This document shows positions 248 to 10,154 of a stretch of DNA of 10,154 nt, piece after piece. The DNA comes from Bacteroidota bacterium (lineage in GTDB: Bacteria > Bacteroidota > Bacteroidia > Bacteroidales > JADFUO01). The notes below the pieces were generated by a model, which worked only from the letters and a program-made list of their open reading frames with translations, was not told the origin of the DNA and did not search any database. Each line of letters begins with the position of its first letter. The first letter of the stretch is position 1. The stretch is from the NCBI GenBank assembly GCA_015222115.1, contig JADFUO010000082.1, positions 1 to 10,154 of the forward strand. The letters are read 5' to 3'. The position numbers were made by a program, and so were the translations under genes.

Positions 248-3200
248 CTACTCAACCACAATTCTTTTCACAAACGTTCCTGTATTTGTTTTGAAATAAA
301 GTAAATAAATACCTGTAGTAAGTTGTGACACATCCAGGGAAAACTTTTTACTCCCCACATTTCTATTGATAATAATTTGGCCACGGTTATTCAACATCTG
401 AAGATCAGTAACCGTTTCAATTGCATCAACAAATATTATATCAGTTGCAGGATTTGGATAGATGCTTATTTGATCAGCAGTATTTTCTTCAATTCCTACA
501 TTCCAGTTGACCGTAACAGTATTTGACGGGACAGATTCACCCTCGTCGTAATAGGCAGTTACATAGTAGTTATAATTACCAAATCCAGGCAATATATCTC
601 CATAATAAGGTATTGCAGAATTGCCAAGCAACGTCCCGTTCCTGTATATTTTATAGTATGAAAATCCTTTGGTATCTTTTGCTTTCTTAGTAACCCTGCT
701 ATTCGGTTTTCCTGATTCAAGAATCACCGACTTGTTCACCGGGTTATATGTATCCGGTTTAATGTATTCATTGACAATTACACCATCCTTGGTAGTACTG
801 ATCAGGGCCTCATGACCTCCCATGTAATAATATTCCCATGTACCCATTTCTGTGAATCCACCTGTATGATTACCAAAATACAAGGTGCCATTGTATGAAC
901 TTTCGTCAACGCCTACGTAGGGCCCATCGGCATTTGTATTATAAGTTGCCACCATGAATGAAGGTTCATTGATGCTTATATCATTCACATTCCAGGTGAT
1001 CCAGTTGTTGGAAACGCCGTTTGTAGTATAGGGACCCTGCAATACATTGGATCCATTGCCGGATAATATATATACTTCCATTGGAGCGCTATAATTGCCG
1101 TGATTGGAGGTATAGAACCTAACTTCCTTTAATGTTACAGGATAGGTTGGTAAAGTAAACAACTGGGCGATTCCGGCTCCGCCGTTTGTTGACGCGAAAG
1201 AATTTTCAAAGCCATTGTCATGATAGTAAATCCATCCTGAGCCGCCTGCCGGAATCCAGTAAAGAGAAACTTTCTCGTTGTTATTGGTTGCGGCAAGATT
1301 TCCGGGTGGTAATAAAGACCCTCCTGAAACAGTTGCCTGAACGGGACCTGCCGCATTGGATTCCCCTTCGTTGTAAACCGCTGTTACATTATAATTGTAG
1401 GTGCCGTTAGGTAAGCCATTATCATCATAATAGGTATTTGTAACCACGGAACTGTTGATCTTATTTCCATCTCTGTAAATATTGTATCCAAGCAGCCCTC
1501 TCAATTTGTTAGCTTGGTTTTCAATAGGAAGTATAGTATTCACAATACTCTTTTGTATTCTAACAGTATTATTTGTGCCATTTGTTAGTGAAATTAACTC
1601 AGGCATGGTATTAAAATTCAGTTCTTCCCTGCTGCCGTCAGAATATTCAACTATAGCTCTTATAAGGTAAGCTTCAGGCCATGTAGTCCATGTTGAACCT
1701 GCTTCATATAAATCCCATGATCGGCCATTGTTCAGGTTTTCATCGTAACCCAGGTATACATCATCACTGATTGAACCGAAACCAACAACGAAATCTCCGG
1801 AGAAAGTAATATTAAAAGCGCTGATGTCCAGAACAAACCAATCTTCATCAACACCGGTACAGATTCTTTCATATACCGGGGTTGTACCCGGTTGTGAGCC
1901 CGCCCATCCAAACACTCTGGCATTAAAGGTTATGCTACTACCTTCTGTTGAGGTATAATATTTAATTGTCAAAACTTTACATGGGCCTGATGGTGACATG
2001 CGTGTGGCCATGGTATAACCAATATATTTATATCCTCCGGTTAATGTATTGTTATCATAGATAAGTTCTTCGGTACCGCCACCGCTAGGAGCAGTCCAGC
2101 TAATATGAACATTACTACCACTCACTGAAGCCTGAAGCTCTGTTGGTGGTTGAAGAGTTGATCCTCCCTGTACAGCAAGATATGCATTGACTCTGCCATA
2201 TCCCATCTCGTTGTTCCAGGTACTATAAGGATAATCCGGATTGTTTGAATAAGAATATCCGCCCACTTTTTCACAACTGTTATAGAGCTGGGTTTTAATC
2301 TGATGTTCGCTCCAGCCGGGATGGACAGATCCAATCAGGGCAACAACTCCTGCTGCAATCGGACAGGACATCGATGTTCCTGATAAGGATACAAAATCAC
2401 CAGTGGCATATCCCTGAGTACCTTCCCTGTCAAGTGTGTAACAGTCAACACCGGGAGCAATAATGTCGGTTGAATCACCATAATTAGAGAAATCTGCCCT
2501 GGTATCGTTTGAGTTTGAAGCTCCTACGCCTACTACATGAGGAAACAGGAGAGGATACGCAATTGCATTCACGGCATTATCGTTACCGGTTGAAGCCAGT
2601 ATAACTGCTCCAAGACCACTCCGGGGTTGGGTGCGCATGGCTTCGTATGCATCCTTTACAATATCATTATTAGCCCAAGAATGTATGCCAATGCTGTTAC
2701 TTACCGCAACAACACTGTAACTTGTGTTGGCAATGTGCTCTCCGGCTCTCTGTATCGTCCAGGAATCAGTGTTAAAGCTGCCACCATCGAAATCATAACC
2801 AATCCTTATAGGCAATACCTTACAGTTATAACCAACACTGGCAACACCATAATTATTATTGGTGATTGCCCCTATAAATCCGGCACATGGTGTTCCGTGA
2901 TTTTCATCAGGATGAGTGGCTGAAGGATCATTGTTGTCATTTACAGCACAATAAGGATCAACTAGTTTCCCTGAAAATTCAGCATGATTAAGATCATACC
3001 CGTGACCATCTACAACAGCAACAACAATATTTGATGAACCTGTTGTTATATCCCATGCTTCCGGAGCATCTATGTCGGCATCACTTGCCTGATTTAAGAA
3101 CCATTGATCAGTATAGTAAGGATCGTTAGGGATATGACCTGTCTGTCCCTTAAATATGAAGTTAGGCTGTGCATAGTTAATACCTTTATTCTTGCTCAAT

Positions 3201-3790
3201 AAACGGGATTGCTCAAAAACATCAGATCCGGCTTTCAACCGTACAACATAGGATTTAGATCGGACCAGGTCTATCACATCCAGTAATTTTCCATTAACCT
3301 GCCTGATGAATTCATTTGATTCCTTGTCATTCAGATCACCTTTCGTAATATTGAAAATCATAATGTTTTCAACACAGGCATAATCATTATCTTTAATCAG
3401 CAATGGATAAACTGATGCAACATACGGCAAAAGTTTTATTTTGCCTATCAGTATTTCGCATTCATCTATCGAAGTAATCCTTTCCTGATTAACGTAAAAA
3501 GTCATAGCTTTTTTTGAGTTAAAAACTATTTTTTCGCTAAGCGGTTGTAAAAGGTCACCCTCGGTTTTGCTTAACAACAGGATGATTGCATCAGCATCCG
3601 GCTTTTCATAAAAAGAAATGAAAAGTTTGCTGTAATCGGCTGATGGTGTTATTAGCTTTCCATCATCATAAAATGCAAATTTCCCTGTTTTGTTTTCAAT
3701 CAGTAATGATTGTCCTCTGAGGTTATGGTTCATAAAAACAAGCGTCAGAAATGCAACCATAACGGTAATAAAAATTGTAGATTTTTTCAT
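248..3790 (-). CDS. Secreted subtilisin-like (S8) serine protease with T9SS sorting domain
   Basis: This is an 1180-residue multidomain exoprotease. Residues 1-27 form a signal peptide (MKK, then a hydrophobic core). Residues 28-215 look like a propeptide ending in the YAQPNF segment typical of subtilisin prodomains. The S8 catalytic domain spans about 240-540 with the full set of catalytic residues: Asp261 in AVVDGHG, His298 in NHGTPCAG, the oxyanion Asn403 in ASTGN, and Ser473 in SGTSMSCP. Residues 547-822 and 826-1094 are two related units, each a fibronectin-III fold apparently split by a beta-sandwich insert. Residues 1107-1180 match a type A T9SS C-terminal domain (ISIYPNPATD start, GIYLLYF, end VKRIVVE), so the protein should cross the outer membrane by T9SS and be anchored or released. 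The start has no Shine-Dalgarno but an A-rich leader, as is usual in Bacteroidota. It follows the lipoprotein gene by 29 bp and is probably co-transcribed with it. Substrate unknown. Confidence 0.93.
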   Translation of the reverse strand: MKKSTIFITVMVAFLTLVFMNHNLRGQSLLIENKTGKFAFYDDGKLITPSADYSKLFISFYEKPDADAIILLLSKTEGDLLQPLSEKIVFNSKKAMTFYVNQERITSIDECEILIGKIKLLPYVASVYPLLIKDNDYACVENIMIFNITKGDLNDKESNEFIRQVNGKLLDVIDLVRSKSYVVRLKAGSDVFEQSRLLSKNKGINYAQPNFIFKGQTGHIPNDPYYTDQWFLNQASDADIDAPEAWDITTGSSNIVVAVVDGHGYDLNHAEFSGKLVDPYCAVNDNNDPSATHPDENHGTPCAGFIGAITNNNYGVASVGYNCKVLPIRIGYDFDGGSFNTDSWTIQRAGEHIANTSYSVVAVSNSIGIHSWANNDIVKDAYEAMRTQPRSGLGAVILASTGNDNAVNAIAYPLLFPHVVGVGASNSNDTRADFSNYGDSTDIIAPGVDCYTLDREGTQGYATGDFVSLSGTSMSCPIAAGVVALIGSVHPGWSEHQIKTQLYNSCEKVGGYSYSNNPDYPYSTWNNEMGYGRVNAYLAVQGGSTLQPPTELQASVSGSNVHISWTAPSGGGTEELIYDNNTLTGGYKYIGYTMATRMSPSGPCKVLTIKYYTSTEGSSITFNARVFGWAGSQPGTTPVYERICTGVDEDWFVLDISAFNITFSGDFVVGFGSISDDVYLGYDENLNNGRSWDLYEAGSTWTTWPEAYLIRAIVEYSDGSREELNFNTMPELISLTNGTNNTVRIQKSIVNTILPIENQANKLRGLLGYNIYRDGNKINSSVVTNTYYDDNGLPNGTYNYNVTAVYNEGESNAAGPVQATVSGGSLLPPGNLAATNNNEKVSLYWIPAGGSGWIYYHDNGFENSFASTNGGAGIAQLFTLPTYPVTLKEVRFYTSNHGNYSAPMEVYILSGNGSNVLQGPYTTNGVSNNWITWNVNDISINEPSFMVATYNTNADGPYVGVDESSYNGTLYFGNHTGGFTEMGTWEYYYMGGHEALISTTKDGVIVNEYIKPDTYNPVNKSVILESGKPNSRVTKKAKDTKGFSYYKIYRNGTLLGNSAIPYYGDILPGFGNYNYYVTAYYDEGESVPSNTVTVNWNVGIEENTADQISIYPNPATDIIFVDAIETVTDLQMLNNRGQIIINRNVGSKKFSLDVSQLTTGIYLLYFKTNTGTFVKRIVVE
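509..2152 (-). repeat. Duplicated FN3 + beta-sandwich units inside the protease gene
   Basis: Two protein-level repeats lie head to tail: unit 1 at 1325-2152 (residues 547-822) and unit 2 at 509-1315 (residues 826-1094). Each begins with FN3 strands A-B (PPTELQASVSGSNVHISW; PPGNLAATNNNEKVSLYW). Each then has about 190 residues of insert, and finally the remaining FN3 strands (YNIYRDG...NYNVTAVYNEGES; YKIYRNG...NYYVTAYYDEGES). The inserts share the order L-K-x-V/I-x-[FY]YTS, an aromatic Trp-rich strand, and V-G-x-D-E/Y-L-G-Y-D-E. The units have diverged, so the duplication is not recent. Confidence 0.7.
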
Positions 3791-3819: not shown

Positions 3820-5214
3820 TTAGAAAACAATTGATATTTCCTTTTTTGGACCACCTGTACATTTTATGGTTATTATATCCCTTACACCTGCTTCTGCTCC
3901 GGGAACATATAAAGATATATCTGAATTTTCAGTAATTGTGGTAGTATATGAATTCATATATCCATCACTTCCAACAACACTTATTTTTACTTCGGTTCCC
4001 TCTGCCGAAGGACAAAGTATCAATGCCGATGCAACATAACCCTGACCTGGAGAAGGATCTTTAGGTACAGTTTTAAAATTTACTATTCTTAGTTGAGGAT
4101 TTAATGTTATGGTCCAAGAGTTAGATCCATGTTGATAATCCATCCAATTAGAAGTCTCACTTTTGATTCCGGGTACCTTAATATAAGCTTTCATTTTATA
4201 TTGTGCAGCTGGTTGATTACATATAGATGTAATTTTATCACAAAACCATGAATCAATACTAGTACCACCTCCGTAATCTTCATGAATGAAAGAACAATAT
4301 AACTCAGATGCTGTAAATGCTCCGGCACATACTGCCGTTATAGCTGCAGCAGATACTACATTCGGGAAAACTACTGAAATTTCCGCTGTTATTTTTACGC
4401 ATATTGCGGCTTTATCATAAAATGTCAACGCTGACTGTCCTGCACAGGCAATATTCAATAAAGATAAAAGCTTATCACATATTGGCTTCAGATTAACCGG
4501 CGGTAAACCAAACTGCGATGGGGTGTTAAGTTTATATTGTCCATTGCCTAAGTTTTTCATTATCCCATAGTGACCATCCAATATATCATTTGGATCAAAT
4601 CTTAAATTGATATTTGCATTTAAAACTAAATAATCACATTGTTTAAGCGTAAAATTGACACTGCCTTTTGTTTCTTTCAAATCCTTATTATAAACCTCTT
4701 CATTATATGCAGGAGTAACAGAAAATTGAGATTTTTTATCTTTTCGAATATTGGTAAAATAATTTTCAGATACAATGTCATTTTCTTTTAATGATTCCTT
4801 TAAATCAATTGGAATGCTTAGTTCTATATCTCCTTCCGGAGAAATAGCTTTTACCCGAATTTCATTTTCTGATAACCATTCAAGTTTAAAAACAACCCCG
4901 TTTGTTGCAAATATTTGTTTGGTTTTTCCTTCCTCATCTACTATAACAATGGTTTCTTTGGTTTCGCCGGGAGCAAGCACACTATATGCATCAAAGCTTA
5001 ATGCTTCACCTGTTTCTCTGTCTTTTTCTCCATAATAACATATAGTAACACCTTCTTGAGTTTCAACTTTTAATAATAATGGGTCGGTCGGATTTGTATA
5101 CAAAGTTAATTTTGGTGGAATTTTTAAGGGTTCCTCCGAAATATCATCTTTGGGACAACCCATAATTAATAGTATAATAGCTATTGCAAAAAACAATTGA
5201 ATAAATTTTTTCAT
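3820..5214 (-). CDS. Predicted surface-exposed lipoprotein of unknown function
   Basis: This 464-residue protein has no family I recognise. Residues 1-20 are a lipoprotein signal peptide with the lipobox LIMGC, giving a lipidated Cys20. The next residues, PKDD, fit the Bacteroidota lipoprotein export signature (Lys followed by acidic residues), which suggests placement on the outer face of the outer membrane. Residues about 36-140 and 372-464 look beta-rich and Ig-like. The centre (about 240-335) is probably helical, Ala-rich, and holds seven cysteines (246, 257, 272, 296, 307, 325, 332) that could form disulfides. The start is fixed by a clear GGAGGT Shine-Dalgarno 4 bp upstream of the ATG. 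It is the first gene of a likely two-gene operon with the secreted protease and could be its partner, substrate or inhibitor, but only the context supports that. Confidence 0.85.
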   Translation of the reverse strand: MKKFIQLFFAIAIILLIMGCPKDDISEEPLKIPPKLTLYTNPTDPLLLKVETQEGVTICYYGEKDRETGEALSFDAYSVLAPGETKETIVIVDEEGKTKQIFATNGVVFKLEWLSENEIRVKAISPEGDIELSIPIDLKESLKENDIVSENYFTNIRKDKKSQFSVTPAYNEEVYNKDLKETKGSVNFTLKQCDYLVLNANINLRFDPNDILDGHYGIMKNLGNGQYKLNTPSQFGLPPVNLKPICDKLLSLLNIACAGQSALTFYDKAAICVKITAEISVVFPNVVSAAAITAVCAGAFTASELYCSFIHEDYGGGTSIDSWFCDKITSICNQPAAQYKMKAYIKVPGIKSETSNWMDYQHGSNSWTITLNPQLRIVNFKTVPKDPSPGQGYVASALILCPSAEGTEVKISVVGSDGYMNSYTTTITENSDISLYVPGAEAGVRDIITIKCTGGPKKEISIVF

Positions 5215-5768: not shown

Positions 5769-6032
5769 ATGATAAAAATTAAAAGCAACATAGCAATTAG
5801 TGATTCGGGATTTATTTTTAATCCGGCAAACGGTGAATCTTTTTCTGCAAATCCGATTGGAATTGAATTTTTTAACTTTATCAAACAGGGAAAACCTCAA
5901 GAAGATATTTTTGAAAATATGCTTGAAAAATATAATACTGATAAAAATACTTTAGAAAAGGATTATAGCGATTTTGTTCAAACTTTAAATCAATTTCAAT
6001 TACTTGACCAGGATGCAGAAAAGGAAGCTTAA
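5769..6032 (+). CDS. PqqD-like protein (RiPP recognition element fold)
   Basis: This 87-residue protein reads as a PqqD-family domain over its whole length. An N-terminal beta hairpin (IAISDSGFIFNPANGESFSAN) is followed by the characteristic N-x-x-G-x-x-[FI]-[FW] helix start (NPIGIEFFNFIKQGK), then the helix EDIFENMLEKYN. A C-terminal helix follows, ending DFVQTLNQFQLL. PqqD-type domains bind the leader peptide of ribosomal natural-product precursors and present it to modifying enzymes; some family members in Bacteroidota have other or unknown partners. It is the first gene of the plus-strand cluster and overlaps the ATP-grasp gene by 20 bp in a different frame, which implies translational coupling and a shared job. 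No HprK-related kinase or radical SAM gene lies next to it in this window. The start has no Shine-Dalgarno. Confidence 0.8.
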   Translation: MIKIKSNIAISDSGFIFNPANGESFSANPIGIEFFNFIKQGKPQEDIFENMLEKYNTDKNTLEKDYSDFVQTLNQFQLLDQDAEKEA

Positions 6033-7059
6033 CATTGCAGTTACGGGTCTGAATGCTATTGACAGTCCGGGTCCCGGTGTTGCGGTTATTCGTGCTTTAC
6101 GCGAAGCTAATTCATTTGATGTAAGAATCATCGGATTGGCATACGAATCACTTGAACCCGGAATATATATGCATCAACTGGTTGATAAAACTTATCAAAT
6201 ACCATATCCAACCGCCGGAATAGAAACTTTATTAGCCCGTCTGGAATATATACAATCACAAGAAAACCTTGATGTGATAATCCCGAATTTTGATGCAGAA
6301 CTTTATTCATTCATCAAGCTCAGTCCTAAGCTGAAAAAAATGGGAATCAATACATTTCTTCCCACAATAGAGCAATTTGAAGAACGGCAAAAAATAAACC
6401 TTCCTGAGTTCGGTGAAAAATATGATATCAGGGTACCGCACAGCACAGCAATTTATAATATAAGGGAAATATACGGACAGGCATCGGAATTTTCATATCC
6501 TTTATTAGTAAAAGGGAAATATTATGATGCTTCGGTTGCATACAATGCCGACCAGATGAAAACCTATTTCAATAAGATTTCAGCTAAATGGGGCTTACCG
6601 ATAATCATCCAGGAATTTATCCATGGCACCGAATATAATACAACGGGCTTGGGAGATGGCAAAGGCAATACTTATGCTTCGTTTCCAATGCGGAAACAAT
6701 ATATTACAGATAAAGGAAAAGCATGGGGTGGTATTTCAATTGCAGATAAAAAATTACTTGAACTTACAGAAAGTTTCATCAGTTCAACAAAATGGCGTGG
6801 GGTGTTTGAACTAGAATTTATGAAAAATCAGAAAAATGAATTTTATTTACTGGAGATTAATCCGAGAATACCGGCATGGATTTATTTAGCTGTGGGAGTT
6901 GGACAAAATATCCCGGAAGGACTTGTAAATCTTGCAATGGGAAATAAAATCAAACCATTCAAAGAATATAAAGTCGGGAAAATGTTTATCAGATATGCTT
7001 ATGATATGATTGTTGATATTTCGGAATTTGAGCAAATATCAACTTATGGTGAACTGTGA
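6013..7059 (+). CDS. ATP-grasp ligase (carbamoyl-phosphate-synthase-like fold)
   Basis: This 348-residue enzyme probably joins a carboxylate to an amine or thiol through an acyl-phosphate, using ATP and Mg. Residues 1-120 form the Rossmann-like pre-ATP-grasp domain (NIAVTGLNAIDSPGPGVAVIRAL, a glycine-rich loop). The ATP-grasp domain follows, with Lys167 in YPLLVKGK, the adenine-contact segment IIQEFIHGTE, and the metal ligands in FELEF (Glu266, Glu268) and LLEINPR (Glu281, Asn283, Arg285), all intact. I prefer the ATG at 6013 over a TTG at 6004 in the same frame; both overlap the PqqD-like gene. The neighbouring PqqD-like protein and PLP decarboxylase suggest amino-acid or peptide ligation. 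The acceptor and donor cannot be read from sequence. Confidence 0.85.
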   Translation: MQKRKLNIAVTGLNAIDSPGPGVAVIRALREANSFDVRIIGLAYESLEPGIYMHQLVDKTYQIPYPTAGIETLLARLEYIQSQENLDVIIPNFDAELYSFIKLSPKLKKMGINTFLPTIEQFEERQKINLPEFGEKYDIRVPHSTAIYNIREIYGQASEFSYPLLVKGKYYDASVAYNADQMKTYFNKISAKWGLPIIIQEFIHGTEYNTTGLGDGKGNTYASFPMRKQYITDKGKAWGGISIADKKLLELTESFISSTKWRGVFELEFMKNQKNEFYLLEINPRIPAWIYLAVGVGQNIPEGLVNLAMGNKIKPFKEYKVGKMFIRYAYDMIVDISEFEQISTYGEL

Positions 7060-7073
7060 CCTGATTAATCAGG
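7060..7073. promoter_or_regulatory. Perfect 14-bp palindrome between ATP-grasp and decarboxylase genes
   Basis: CCTGATTAATCAGG begins on the base after the ATP-grasp stop codon and lies 28 bp before the decarboxylase start. It has no U-tract and is too short to be a good terminator. It could be a dimeric regulator site or an mRNA processing or stability hairpin, or chance. No second copy was noticed in the window. Confidence 0.3.
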
Positions 7074-7101
7074 AAGAAACAATTAAATTAATTATAAAAA
7101 T

Positions 7102-8460
7102 ATGGAAAAACAAAGATATGAACGTCCGGTAATAATAAAGCTGGAAAGTAATATGCCGAACAAGTTCGGTCTTCGCACTGAATATAAACCAAAAACACAT
7201 ATTGATAATGTTTCAGTTAAAGACCTTATAAATGAGTATGGCTCTCCATTATTTGTAATATCAGAGAAAACCATACGATCAACTTATAAAAATGCAAAAA
7301 AAGCTTTTACAACAAGGTATCCGAAAGTGCAATTTGCATGGTCATACAAAACCAACTATTTAAGTGCTGTTTGTAATGTTTTTCATCAGGAAGGATCGTG
7401 GGCAGAAGTTGTTTCAGGTTTTGAATATGATAAAGCTATTAAAAACGGTGTTGATGGTAAAAAAATCATCTTTAACGGACCCGACAAAACCGAAAAAGAC
7501 CTGACCAAAGCAATTGAAAACGATTCTTTGATCCACATTGATCATTTGGATGAATTATACACAATTATTGAATTATCTGAAAAGTTGAACAAAAAACCTA
7601 AAGTTGCTATCAGGGTTAATATGGACACAGGCATATATCCTATGTGGGACCGTTTCGGATTTAATTATGAAAACGGACAGGCATGGGATGCTTTAAATAA
7701 AATAATGCGTTCAAAAAAACTTGATTTAGTCGGCTTGCATACACACATCGGAACATTTATGCTTTCACCGCAAGCTTATGGAACCGCTGCTTATAAACTT
7801 GCTGAACTTGCAATTGGTATTCAAAAGAAATACGACCACGAAATAAAATATATTGATATGGGCGGAGGTTTTGCTTCCAAAAACACTCTTAAAGGTGCAT
7901 ACTTACCCGGTGTTGATACCAGCCCGTCTTTTGATGATTTTTCAGAAGCTATTACAAGTGCATTGATAAACAGCGATTTCAAACCCGACAAATTACCTCT
8001 TCTGATACTTGAAACCGGCAGGGCTTTAATTGATGATGCGGGATTTTTACTTGGTACGGTCATCTCTAATAAACGTCTGTCGGACGGGAAAAGAACCACA
8101 ATTATTGATGTTGGAGTAAATATTTTATTCACTTCATTCTGGTACGACCATAAAGTAACACCTGCCCAGCCATTTACACAATATACTGAAGATACGGTTT
8201 TATATGGTCCTTTATGTATGAATATTGATGTAATCCGCGAGAACGCAAGCTTACCTCTTTTGAATAAAGGCGACAATATTGTTATTCATCAAGTAGGTGC
8301 TTATAATATGACTCAATGGATGCAGTTCATTACTTTAAGACCAAAAGTAGTGATGATAGATATGGACGGCAAAACTCATATTATCCGCGAGAACGAAAGT
8401 ATTGACAGCATAACCTCTTTTGAAAAAGTACCTGAGTATCTGAAAAAGTTTGAATTGTAA
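7102..8460 (+). CDS. PLP-dependent fold-type III decarboxylase (DAP/ornithine decarboxylase-like)
   Basis: This 452-residue enzyme belongs to the alanine-racemase-fold amino-acid decarboxylases. Its active-site set is complete: Lys83 in FAWSYKTNYL (PLP Schiff base), HTHIGT at 213-218, GGGF at 254-257 (phosphate loop), LETGR at 303-307, GPLCMNID at 369-376 with Cys372 and Asp376, and GAYNM at 399-403. The CMNID segment differs from the Cys-Glu-Ser motif of diaminopimelate decarboxylase, so the substrate is probably not free DAP. Residues 1-30 are an extra N-terminal tail containing YERPVIIKL, which resembles the Tyr-x-x-Pro leader motif bound by PqqD-like proteins. The gene starts 42 bp after the ATP-grasp gene and probably acts in the same pathway. 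Carrier-bound amino acids are a plausible substrate, as for BtrK in butirosin synthesis. Naming it lysA would overcall it. Confidence 0.85.
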   Translation: MEKQRYERPVIIKLESNMPNKFGLRTEYKPKTHIDNVSVKDLINEYGSPLFVISEKTIRSTYKNAKKAFTTRYPKVQFAWSYKTNYLSAVCNVFHQEGSWAEVVSGFEYDKAIKNGVDGKKIIFNGPDKTEKDLTKAIENDSLIHIDHLDELYTIIELSEKLNKKPKVAIRVNMDTGIYPMWDRFGFNYENGQAWDALNKIMRSKKLDLVGLHTHIGTFMLSPQAYGTAAYKLAELAIGIQKKYDHEIKYIDMGGGFASKNTLKGAYLPGVDTSPSFDDFSEAITSALINSDFKPDKLPLLILETGRALIDDAGFLLGTVISNKRLSDGKRTTIIDVGVNILFTSFWYDHKVTPAQPFTQYTEDTVLYGPLCMNIDVIRENASLPLLNKGDNIVIHQVGAYNMTQWMQFITLRPKVVMIDMDGKTHIIRENESIDSITSFEKVPEYLKKFEL

Positions 8461-8467
8461 TATTAAA

Positions 8468-8709
8468 ATGGTTGAATGGTTAAATTGTTGAATTAATAAA
8501 ATCTTTGAGAATCAGTGTAATCTGTGGCTATTATTGGTTGCGGGTTACGAGATACGGGTTGCGAGTTGCGGTATTAGATGGTTGAATAAAAGCAAATCAT
8601 CTCTGCTTCTTTGCGTCTCTGCGTTTAATACAATGGAAATACAGTTGAAATACAATAGAAATATAAGTAAGCATTTAACCATGAAACTTGAAACCTGAAA
8701 TCTGAAACT
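8468..8709. repeat. Mosaic of short tandem-repeat patches, periods 7-11 bp
   Basis: Nearly the whole gap between the decarboxylase and transporter genes consists of degenerate tandem repeats of changing period. There are 8-bp x3 (ATGGTTGA/ATGGTTAA/ATTGTTGA, 8468-8491), 9-bp x2 (AATCAGTGT/AATCTGTGG, 8510-8527) and 7-bp x5 (TGCGGGT, TACGAGA, TACGGGT, TGCGAGT, TGCGGTA, 8539-8573). Then come 8-bp x3 (TCTGCTTC/TTTGCGTC/TCTGCGTT, 8602-8625), 11-bp x3 (ATACAATGGAA/ATACAGTTGAA/ATACAATAGAA, 8628-8660) and 7-bp x4 (TGAAACT/TGAAACC/TGAAATC/TGAAACT, 8682-8709). The last patch ends 3 bp before the next start codon. No promoter or terminator was recognised here. Function unknown. Confidence 0.75.
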
Positions 8710-8712
8710 AAA

Positions 8713-10154
8713 ATGATAGCCAAACTAAAATACATATTCCCTCATTTCATCAATAGCATTTTAAACAGCTACTCGCAGGTATTTTTTTCAAATAGCTCAA
8801 AATTTGCAGTTATTTTAATTATTGTATCGTTTTTTGATCTTTTTGCCGGTATCAGCGGATTAATTGCGGTTATTGTTTCAAATACAGTTGCCTATCTGGT
8901 AGGTTTTAACCGCTTTAATATCAAGTCGGGATATTATGGATTTAATTCATTACTTGTCGGCTTGGGATTGGGTGTTTTTTACCAGCCCGGATTTGAATTT
9001 TTTGCTCTTTTGCTTTTTGTTTCCTTATTCACACTTTTTGTAACAATAATGCTTGAGGGAGTAATTGGGAAATACGGACTGCCTTATTTAAGTATTTCTT
9101 TCCTTATCGGGATATGGGTGATAACCCTTGCTTCACGCGAATTTACTTCTCTTACAATCAGCGACAGAGGTATTTATAACCTCAACGAAATGTATATGCT
9201 TGGCGGGTTTACAATGGTGAAAATTTATGAATGGTTCAATAACTTAAATCTCCACGAATCAATTACAATATATTTCAGGTCCTTAGGAGCTATATTTTTT
9301 CAGTATCATTTATTCGCCGGAATATTAATTGCAGTCGGAATTTTAATTTATTCAAGGATAGCTTTTTTATTATCTTTAGTTGGATTTTTTTCAGCATATT
9401 TATTTTATCAATTTATAGGTGCCGACATCGGGGAATTAAATTACTGTTACATCGGTTTCAACTATATACTCACAGCTATTGCAATCGGGGGATTTTTTAT
9501 TGTGCCGTCAAGATATTCTTTTCTCTGGGTTATCCTGTTAACCCCTTTAATTTCAATCATGATCACAAGCACAAGTGCCTTGTTTTCAATTCTTCAGTTG
9601 TCAATTTTTTCATTGCCATTTAATTTTATTGTTTTAATGTTTTTATACATACTGAAGTTTAGGGAGCGATTTTATAATAAACCTGAAATTGTTACTGTTC
9701 AGCAGTTTTCACCTGAAAAAAACCTGTATTCACAAACAAATTATAAAGAACGTTTCATAAACCCAAAGTACATTTCAATCTCCCTGCCTTTCTGGGGTGA
9801 ATGGAAAGTTACACAAGGACAGGATGATGAGATTACTCACAAAGATGACTGGAAACATGCCTGGGATTTTGAGATCACTGATGAAGAAAATTCAGCTTTT
9901 AAAAGAAGCGGAACAAAAAGAGAAGATTATTATTGTTATAACAAGCCAATAATTGCCCCTGCCGACGGCTGGGTTGAAGAAATTGTTGATGGTATTGACG
10001 ATAATAAAATCGGTGATGTGAACATGGAAAACAACTGGGGCAATACAATTGTGATAAAACATGCCGAGAAACTTTATTCAAAAGTGAGTCATATTAAAAA
10101 AGAAAGTTTTAAAGTTAAAAAAGGTGAGTTTATAAAAAAAGGTAAAATTATTTC
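8713..10154 (+). CDS. Urea-transporter-family membrane protein fused to an M23 peptidase domain (partial, 3' end missing)
   Basis: The frame is open from an ATG at 8713 to the window end (480 residues visible); an in-frame stop at 8689-8691 fixes this as the first possible start. Residues about 18-312 are hydrophobic and show the two homologous halves of SLC14/UT urea channels. Half one has SYSQVFFSNSSKFAVILI and SGYYGFNSLLVGLGLG (residues 19-90). Half two has SLGAIFFQYHLFAGILI and YIGFNYILTAIAIGGFF (residues 190-262). After a linker (316-350) comes an M23/LytM-like domain: HAWDF at 382-386, PIIAPADGWVEEI, GNTIVIKH, YSKVSHI, and VKKGEFIKKGKII. The terminal HxH zinc motif would lie past the window. 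M23 enzymes cut peptidoglycan peptides outside the cytoplasm, so the C-terminus should be periplasmic. It follows the decarboxylase by 252 bp; membership of the same operon is likely but not certain. Confidence 0.85.
   Translation, partial: MIAKLKYIFPHFINSILNSYSQVFFSNSSKFAVILIIVSFFDLFAGISGLIAVIVSNTVAYLVGFNRFNIKSGYYGFNSLLVGLGLGVFYQPGFEFFALLLFVSLFTLFVTIMLEGVIGKYGLPYLSISFLIGIWVITLASREFTSLTISDRGIYNLNEMYMLGGFTMVKIYEWFNNLNLHESITIYFRSLGAIFFQYHLFAGILIAVGILIYSRIAFLLSLVGFFSAYLFYQFIGADIGELNYCYIGFNYILTAIAIGGFFIVPSRYSFLWVILLTPLISIMITSTSALFSILQLSIFSLPFNFIVLMFLYILKFRERFYNKPEIVTVQQFSPEKNLYSQTNYKERFINPKYISISLPFWGEWKVTQGQDDEITHKDDWKHAWDFEITDEENSAFKRSGTKREDYYCYNKPIIAPADGWVEEIVDGIDDNKIGDVNMENNWGNTIVIKHAEKLYSKVSHIKKESFKVKKGEFIKKGKII

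Follow-up and report, generated by a model that had tools for sequence, protein, structure and literature searches.

We analysed contig JADFUO010000082.1 of a Bacteroidota bacterium, from a metagenome-assembled genome (MAG; G000) that is 83% complete and lies in 534 contigs. The window is the whole contig, 10,154 bases. A check of open reading frames (ORFs) placed four plus-strand genes at the contig end, the third encoding a fold-type III pyridoxal phosphate (PLP) decarboxylase, hereafter DC. The PqqD-like protein encoded by the first is probably a discrete lasso-type RiPP recognition element (RRE; RiPP, ribosomally synthesised and post-translationally modified peptide) with the N-terminal tail of the neighbouring DC as its ligand, to judge from its sequence relatives and from covariation.

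5769..6032, plus strand: PqqD-like protein of 87 aa, assigned as a discrete RRE (Pfam PqqD E 1.5e-9; closest solved chains, the lasso RREs TbiB1, TfuB1 and PbaB1)
6013..7059, plus strand: ATP-grasp ligase, ATG at 6013 (Pfam ATP-grasp_3 and ATPgrasp_Ter over cut-off)
7102..8460, plus strand: fold-type III PLP decarboxylase (DC), 452 aa
8713..10154, plus strand: urea-channel-like protein fused to an M23 peptidase domain, 480 codons, incomplete at the contig end

A sequence-only reading of this DNA had described four same-strand genes, the first two overlapping by 20 bp, and the ORFs and domains confirmed it; an alternative TTG start of the ATP-grasp gene is open at 6004. The PqqD-type protein that it placed beside an ATP-grasp and a fold-type III decarboxylase was confirmed too, with every domain over its Pfam cut-off: PqqD (38.5 bits, cut-off 23.4), ATP-grasp_3 (27.5, 23.2) and ATPgrasp_Ter (35.2, 29.1) in the ligase, Orn_Arg_deC_N (99.7, 23.4) and Orn_DAP_Arg_deC (49.7, 23.0) in DC, and UT (189.4, 25) and Peptidase_M23 (30.2, 28.7) in the membrane fusion protein.

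In a profile search of solved chains, the PqqD-like protein matched three lasso RREs at ranks 1 to 3 (TbiB1 at 4.6e-13, TfuB1 at 1.1e-9, PbaB1 at 2.4e-5), with PqqD proteins and LppB ranked below them. At the sequence level, it is a discrete lasso-type RRE; the lasso RREs (TbiB1, TfuB1/FusB1, PbaB1) and LppB likewise belong to the PqqD family by sequence. According to the part of PMC13381572 that was available, LppB N33 fixes a kink at the leader Pro and LppB D70 hydrogen-bonds the leader Tyr; the N33A change nearly abolished complex formation with the leader and D70A lowered it. The same source sets PbaB1 G42 and Q79 against LppB N33 and D70, reports that PbaB1 Q79D mimics LppB D70, and gives [Y/W]xxPx[L/V/I/F/A] as the motif that discrete lasso RREs recognise. 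The equivalent residues of the window protein were followed across 220 usable loci. These came from 238 loci examined, of which 17 were skipped (nine with no DC in range, seven with no PqqD in range and one with no ATP-grasp), and one of the 221 kept had a DC without its N-terminus.

5850..5852, plus strand: RRE Asn28, equivalent of LppB N33 via PbaB1 G42 (N in 219/220 loci, 1 gap)
5961..5963, plus strand: RRE Asp65, equivalent of LppB D70, aligned with PbaB1 Q79 (covaries with DC residue 6)

Residue 65 is Asp in 161 of the 220 loci. LppB and the window RRE are thus alike in having Asn at the position of the Pro kink and Asp at the one facing the Tyr.

The candidate ligand lies at the very start of DC.

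7102..7176, plus strand: leader-like tail, DC residues 1-25 (low predicted local distance difference test score, pLDDT; matched by strong DC rows of other genomes)
7117..7134, plus strand: putative RRE-binding motif YERPVI, DC residues 6-11 (motif conservation, 220 loci)
7156..7170, plus strand: second tail patch PNKFG, DC residues 19-23 (K21 in 219/220, G23 in 218/220)

All 220 tails contain [YF]xxPx[ILV]: Pro9 and an I, L or V at residue 11 are present in every one, and residue 6 is Tyr in 178 and Phe in 42. With Glu7 in 213 and Lys3 in 209 (11 gaps), the consensus reads K-x-x-[YF]-E-R-P-x-[ILV] and then P-x-K-F-G. The motif fits the published lasso-RRE motif except for the Phe that replaces Y/W in 42 tails, and, as in the lasso RRE and LppB systems, it lies close to an N-terminus. 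The AlphaFold2 model of DC had a mean pLDDT of 89.8 (65 sequences), with residues 1-3, 7-21 and 23-25 under 50, and in this model the first ~25 residues are probably disordered. Conservation of a motif within a tail that is probably disordered suggests an interaction.

Solved relatives of DC do not match the tail: the match to solved FslC (7kh2) begins at DC residue 28 and that to M. jannaschii LysA at residue 34. In a search of the phylum, 34 strong DC rows from other genomes matched from query residue 1-4, and the weaker LysA-type rows among the matches listed (E <= 1e-30) began at residue 14 or later. Three LysA-type homologues from cluster-bearing genomes had neither a [YF]xxPx[ILV] start nor a KxG patch; one of them starts with YxxP, with no hydrophobic residue after it. 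In two genomes (G029 and G060), DC lies on another contig than PqqD and ATP-grasp, yet the tails keep YERPLI and YERPVI, and the RREs keep the Asp.

The tail and the RRE change together. For DC residue 6 and RRE residue 65, the 220 loci comprise Y-D 161, Y-N 16, Y-H 1, F-Y 25, F-S 12, F-A 4 and F-H 1. Tyr is thus paired with Asp, Asn or His (178 loci) and Phe with Tyr, Ser, Ala or His (42 loci), and no Phe occurs with Asp or Asn. This Phe-type subclass, with Tyr, Ser, Ala or His replacing Asp, sets the cluster apart from the lasso RREs and LppB. Some genomes are in the set twice (as a handle and as a named record), and 197 rows remain under 95% identity. On these rows, weighted mutual information (MI) with average product correction ranked the pair first among 37,800 inter-protein column pairs (z 18.3, the next 10.8); by MI, it also ranked first in an earlier 138-row set. 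On a tree built from ATP-grasp and DC without its tail, parsimony gave 10 changes for Y/F, 9 for Asp-or-Asn/other and 10 for the joint trait. We ran 3000 simulations on this tree and retained the 1202 with 20-70 tips in the derived state: none reached the observed agreement of 219/220, and the maximum was 197.

Several results weigh against the docking of this tail by the RRE, or against the role in which we place DC. A single locus pairs Tyr with His. With entropy-normalised MI, the pair fell to rank 93 of 37,800 in the 138-row set, a measure that is uninformative here because nearly invariant columns fill its top ranks. A sign test on independent pairs found six well-supported ones, of which five agree, one shows no RRE change and none opposes (p 0.0625); six pairs are too few to pass this strict test. 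The first, smaller set held only two, both agreeing, and more loci were therefore fetched. Two loci (L047 and L052) first drew attention to the covariation, and they are included in the wider sets on which it was then tested. Between PqqD and ATP-grasp, MI gave no standout pair (best z 9.3), and gene overlap is the sole support for a contact of the RRE with ATP-grasp. Lastly, a LysA over the NCBIfam cut-off was found in 18/62 genomes with a strong ATP-grasp match and in 47/87 without, with no phylogeny correction, on genome lists compiled by hand and with G003, which has a short end fragment of ATP-grasp, among the 87.

The covariation could also be a lineage effect without any contact, as the small number of independent switches at well-supported branches (the six pairs) would allow. 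We consider this highly improbable, since parsimony counts about ten changes, the simulated trees never produce such agreement, and of all column pairs the top-ranked one coincides with a structural contact known from the literature.

The sequence-only reading had proposed a search of the flanks for a short precursor ORF. We searched 140 fetched loci for ORFs with a [YFW]xxPx[LVIFA] start, and leader-like starts recurred only at the start of DC (115 and 18 of the 140 loci in adjoining 200-base bins; next bin 17). Within that search, a stand-alone precursor peptide was rejected, as the leader-like ORFs elsewhere scatter without recurring. Of the peptide or protein that the PqqD-like protein was proposed to hold, a protein is likely, DC through its tail, and a separate carrier peptide is probably not involved. 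Neither a macrolactam synthetase nor a B2 protease domain was found in the six window proteins or in five proteins of the downstream operon; the flanks were not scanned for them.

It is very unlikely that the RRE serves a precursor peptide encoded elsewhere, with the DC tail as its mimic or regulator. The literature treats RREs as parts of RiPP pathways (PMC12710340, available in part), and our search covered the fetched loci and the one type of start only. However, DC alone gave a recurrent leader-like ORF, and the RRE residue tracks DC residue 6 almost without exception. RiPP recognition that extends to structured proteins has a parallel in nitrile-hydratase-like long leaders (PMC12455567, available in part). 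As far as that text goes, the structured part there is the leader of the peptide itself, whereas here a leader-like tail sits on a predicted active enzyme.

Altogether, the motif, the identity of the RRE, the covariation and the detached DCs that keep their tail argue that the RRE most likely docks DC beside the ATP-grasp, a docking deduced from covariation, conservation and relatives by sequence. The RRE cleft would take up the Tyr or Phe, the Pro and the Ile of the tail; Asn28 would lie at the Pro kink and residue 65 opposite the aromatic ring. Given the overlap of the RRE and ATP-grasp genes, the RRE probably sits on ATP-grasp too, and the tail would so hold ligase and decarboxylase together. 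In contrast to the lasso RREs and LppB, the candidate ligand is carried by a 450-aa enzyme instead of a short precursor. RREs serve as markers in the search for RiPP pathways. The leader recognised by this one most likely belongs to an enzyme, so that the presence of an RRE does not necessarily imply a precursor peptide, and enzymes may more generally be joined through leader-like tails. Moreover, a common unexplained Bacteroidota operon becomes testable, with a likely partner, key residues and natural paired swaps at hand.

Regarding the likely chemistry, the ATP-grasp protein matches ATP-grasp_3 and PRK12767-type models, and its residues E266, E268, E281, N283 and R285 are invariant in 14 homologues. 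Its solved relatives by profile are distant, the best being the large chain of carbamoyl phosphate synthetase. Three sites of DC bear on its substrate.

7348..7350, plus strand: DC Lys83, invariant in DC alignment A4 (K in 219/220, 1 gap)
8131..8133, plus strand: DC Thr344, at the position of the substrate Arg of diaminopimelate decarboxylase (DAPDC) and of FigC T327 (alignments read by eye)
8215..8220, plus strand: DC Cys372-Met373; Met stands next to the catalytic Cys, as it does in FigC (C354-M355), in place of the DAPDC acidic residue

We take Lys83 to be the PLP-binding lysine, from knowledge of the family. Cys372 and Met373 are kept in all 206 loci with letters there (14 gaps). By sequence, the nearest decarboxylase to DC is the N-citrylornithine decarboxylase FslC/FigC (256.7 bits), which is also tied nearest by fold; the fold relatives include BtrK as well. 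DC stays under the NCBIfam cut-offs of both FslC (244.3 vs 500) and lysA (215.6 vs 297.9). DAPDC uses an Arg and an acidic residue on its substrate, according to the available part of PMC7857480, from which the FigC residue roles are also taken. FigC and DC are alike in the Met beside the catalytic Cys and in T327 and Y331, which correspond to Thr344 and Y348. They differ at the proposed citrate contacts of FigC, H357 and R387, aligned with Ile375 and Gln405 of DC. Both systems pair a ligase with a decarboxylase; the cluster has an ATP-grasp where the FslC/FigC system has a non-ribosomal-peptide-synthetase-independent siderophore (NIS) synthetase, and solved FslC (7kh2) has no match to the DC tail. 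In sequence comparison, the DC active site resembles that of N-citrylornithine decarboxylase. From this FigC-like active site we infer that the substrate of DC is likely a conjugated amino acid, which narrows its substrate class accordingly. The ATP-grasp would join an amino acid by its side-chain end to a partner via an amide, and DC would then remove the alpha-carboxylate of the conjugate, as in the conversion of N-citrylornithine to N-citrylputrescine.

An alternative is that DC is a divergent DAPDC supplying lysine, in an operon that would be a wall or lysine module, with the tail as a regulatory anchor. We kept a LysA-like role as a rival because canonical LysA is less frequent where the cluster's ATP-grasp is present, and no other lysA-family match was found in G000 at E <= 1, in a MAG that is 83% complete. 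Nevertheless, DC scores below the lysA cut-off, it has Thr344 at the DAPDC Arg position and Met373 at the acidic one, and 18 of the 62 ATP-grasp genomes also have canonical LysA, so we regard this role as unlikely. The sequence-only reading had set against itself a DC that is the only LysA of its genome and acts on diaminopimelate. The evidence on this points both ways: the lack of a second lysA-family match in G000 and the distribution of LysA speak for a LysA-like role, but DC is under the lysA cut-off and lacks the substrate Arg and the acidic residue. Overall, its interpretation was partly supported.

Butirosin biosynthesis joins an ATP-grasp ligase, BtrJ, to a fold-type III decarboxylase of a conjugated amino acid, BtrK, on an acyl carrier protein, BtrI. 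The cluster shares the ATP-grasp and the fold-type III decarboxylase with that system. It differs in the carrier: neither the six window proteins nor the five scanned from the downstream operon gave a carrier domain, the rest of the genome being unsearched. The DC tail could itself fill this place. The RRE would present it to the ATP-grasp, Lys21 would be acylated, and the flexible arm would carry the amino acid into the DC active site; the tail would then do what BtrI does for BtrJ and BtrK, but as a carrier built into the enzyme. Such a self-carrier is favoured by the fact that, in RiPP systems, it is the substrate of the RRE-bound enzyme that bears the leader, by Lys21 in 219 of the 220 loci within a tail modelled at low confidence and by the presence of BtrK among the fold relatives. 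Set against this, the operon yielded no identified releasing enzyme, and the PxKFG patch may simply bind ATP-grasp. We find this reading unlikely; if true, it would put RiPP recognition logic on a catalytic protein, with a carrier fused to the enzyme. For comparison, the distal part of the LppA leader was suggested by its authors to bind some partner (PMC13381572, available in part).

At the level of the operon, conserved co-occurrence of the four genes had been expected by the sequence-only reading, and it was found at 33/33 distant loci and in most nearer relatives; the possibility that the homologues are rarely neighbours was contradicted. We compared 20 regions from relatives, 80 named loci and 60 further regions. 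The recurrent order is PqqD, ATP-grasp, DC and UT/M23 (mostly about 690-775 aa), and it holds at all 33 loci of strong DC homologues from 33 other genomes of the phylum. The four-gene set is far from chance. Downstream of UT/M23 there is usually a ~390-570-aa protein with a tetratricopeptide repeat (TPR) start, and then a ~205-aa TPR protein. For the larger one, Pfam gave TPR matches only, all sub-cut-off, and our guess for the rest of it is a beta-barrel; it was not recognised in any of L145-L165. An ATP-grasp at E <= 1e-50 occurs in 154/393 genomes of the order, and a strong DC (over 460 bits) in 34/395 genomes of the phylum, own genome included. In the literature searched, which reached few subscription journals, we found no description of this operon, its pathway or an enzyme-docking RRE, in line with the earlier statement that no described pathway has this gene set.

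Some loci deviate from this arrangement. In L139 two ORFs make up UT/M23, and in L162 and L165 the genes are separated by other ORFs. In nearer relatives, UT/M23 is missing next to DC in L047, L052 and L059, and DC is missing next to ATP-grasp in L037/L091 (one genome) and L167. Further loci deviate through contigs ending early, and several have extra ORFs between DC and UT/M23. An apparent ATP-grasp/decarboxylase fusion (a frame of 835-837 aa) was discarded as an artefact of a run of undetermined bases.

The membrane fusion protein carries both the domain and the fold of UT. It did not reach the NCBIfam urea_trans_yut cut-off of 274.6, either in the incomplete window copy (118) or in the full-length copy of L036 (116). 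The C-terminal beta domain of UT/M23 in L056 (about residues 540-737, well predicted) was unmatched in a whole-model search and was never searched alone. Conceivably, the UT/M23 and TPR proteins might transport the product or its substrate through the envelope, or work on the wall.

Elsewhere in the window, two genes run in the direction opposite to the operon: a subtilase of 1180 aa that carries a Por secretion tail (248-3790, minus strand) and a 464-aa ORF with no Pfam match over cut-off (3820-5214, minus strand). In other genomes, a second PqqD-like ORF with a similar core lies upstream of the cluster (L034:8533-8781, G109). L162 (G272:C1) has DC at both contig ends with equal score, probably through end overlap of a circular contig. 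A diverged ATP-grasp paralogue (33% identity) stands beside a weak TPR-profile match in L273 (G068:C58), and the 5.5 kb fetched there gave no profile match to DC or PqqD. Finally, a ~199-aa ORF lies upstream of the operon at L061:3356-3955 and L103:9059-9658, with similar-sized ORFs upstream in other loci; judged by eye, it looks like a metal-binding-type domain followed by an AraC-type helix-turn-helix.

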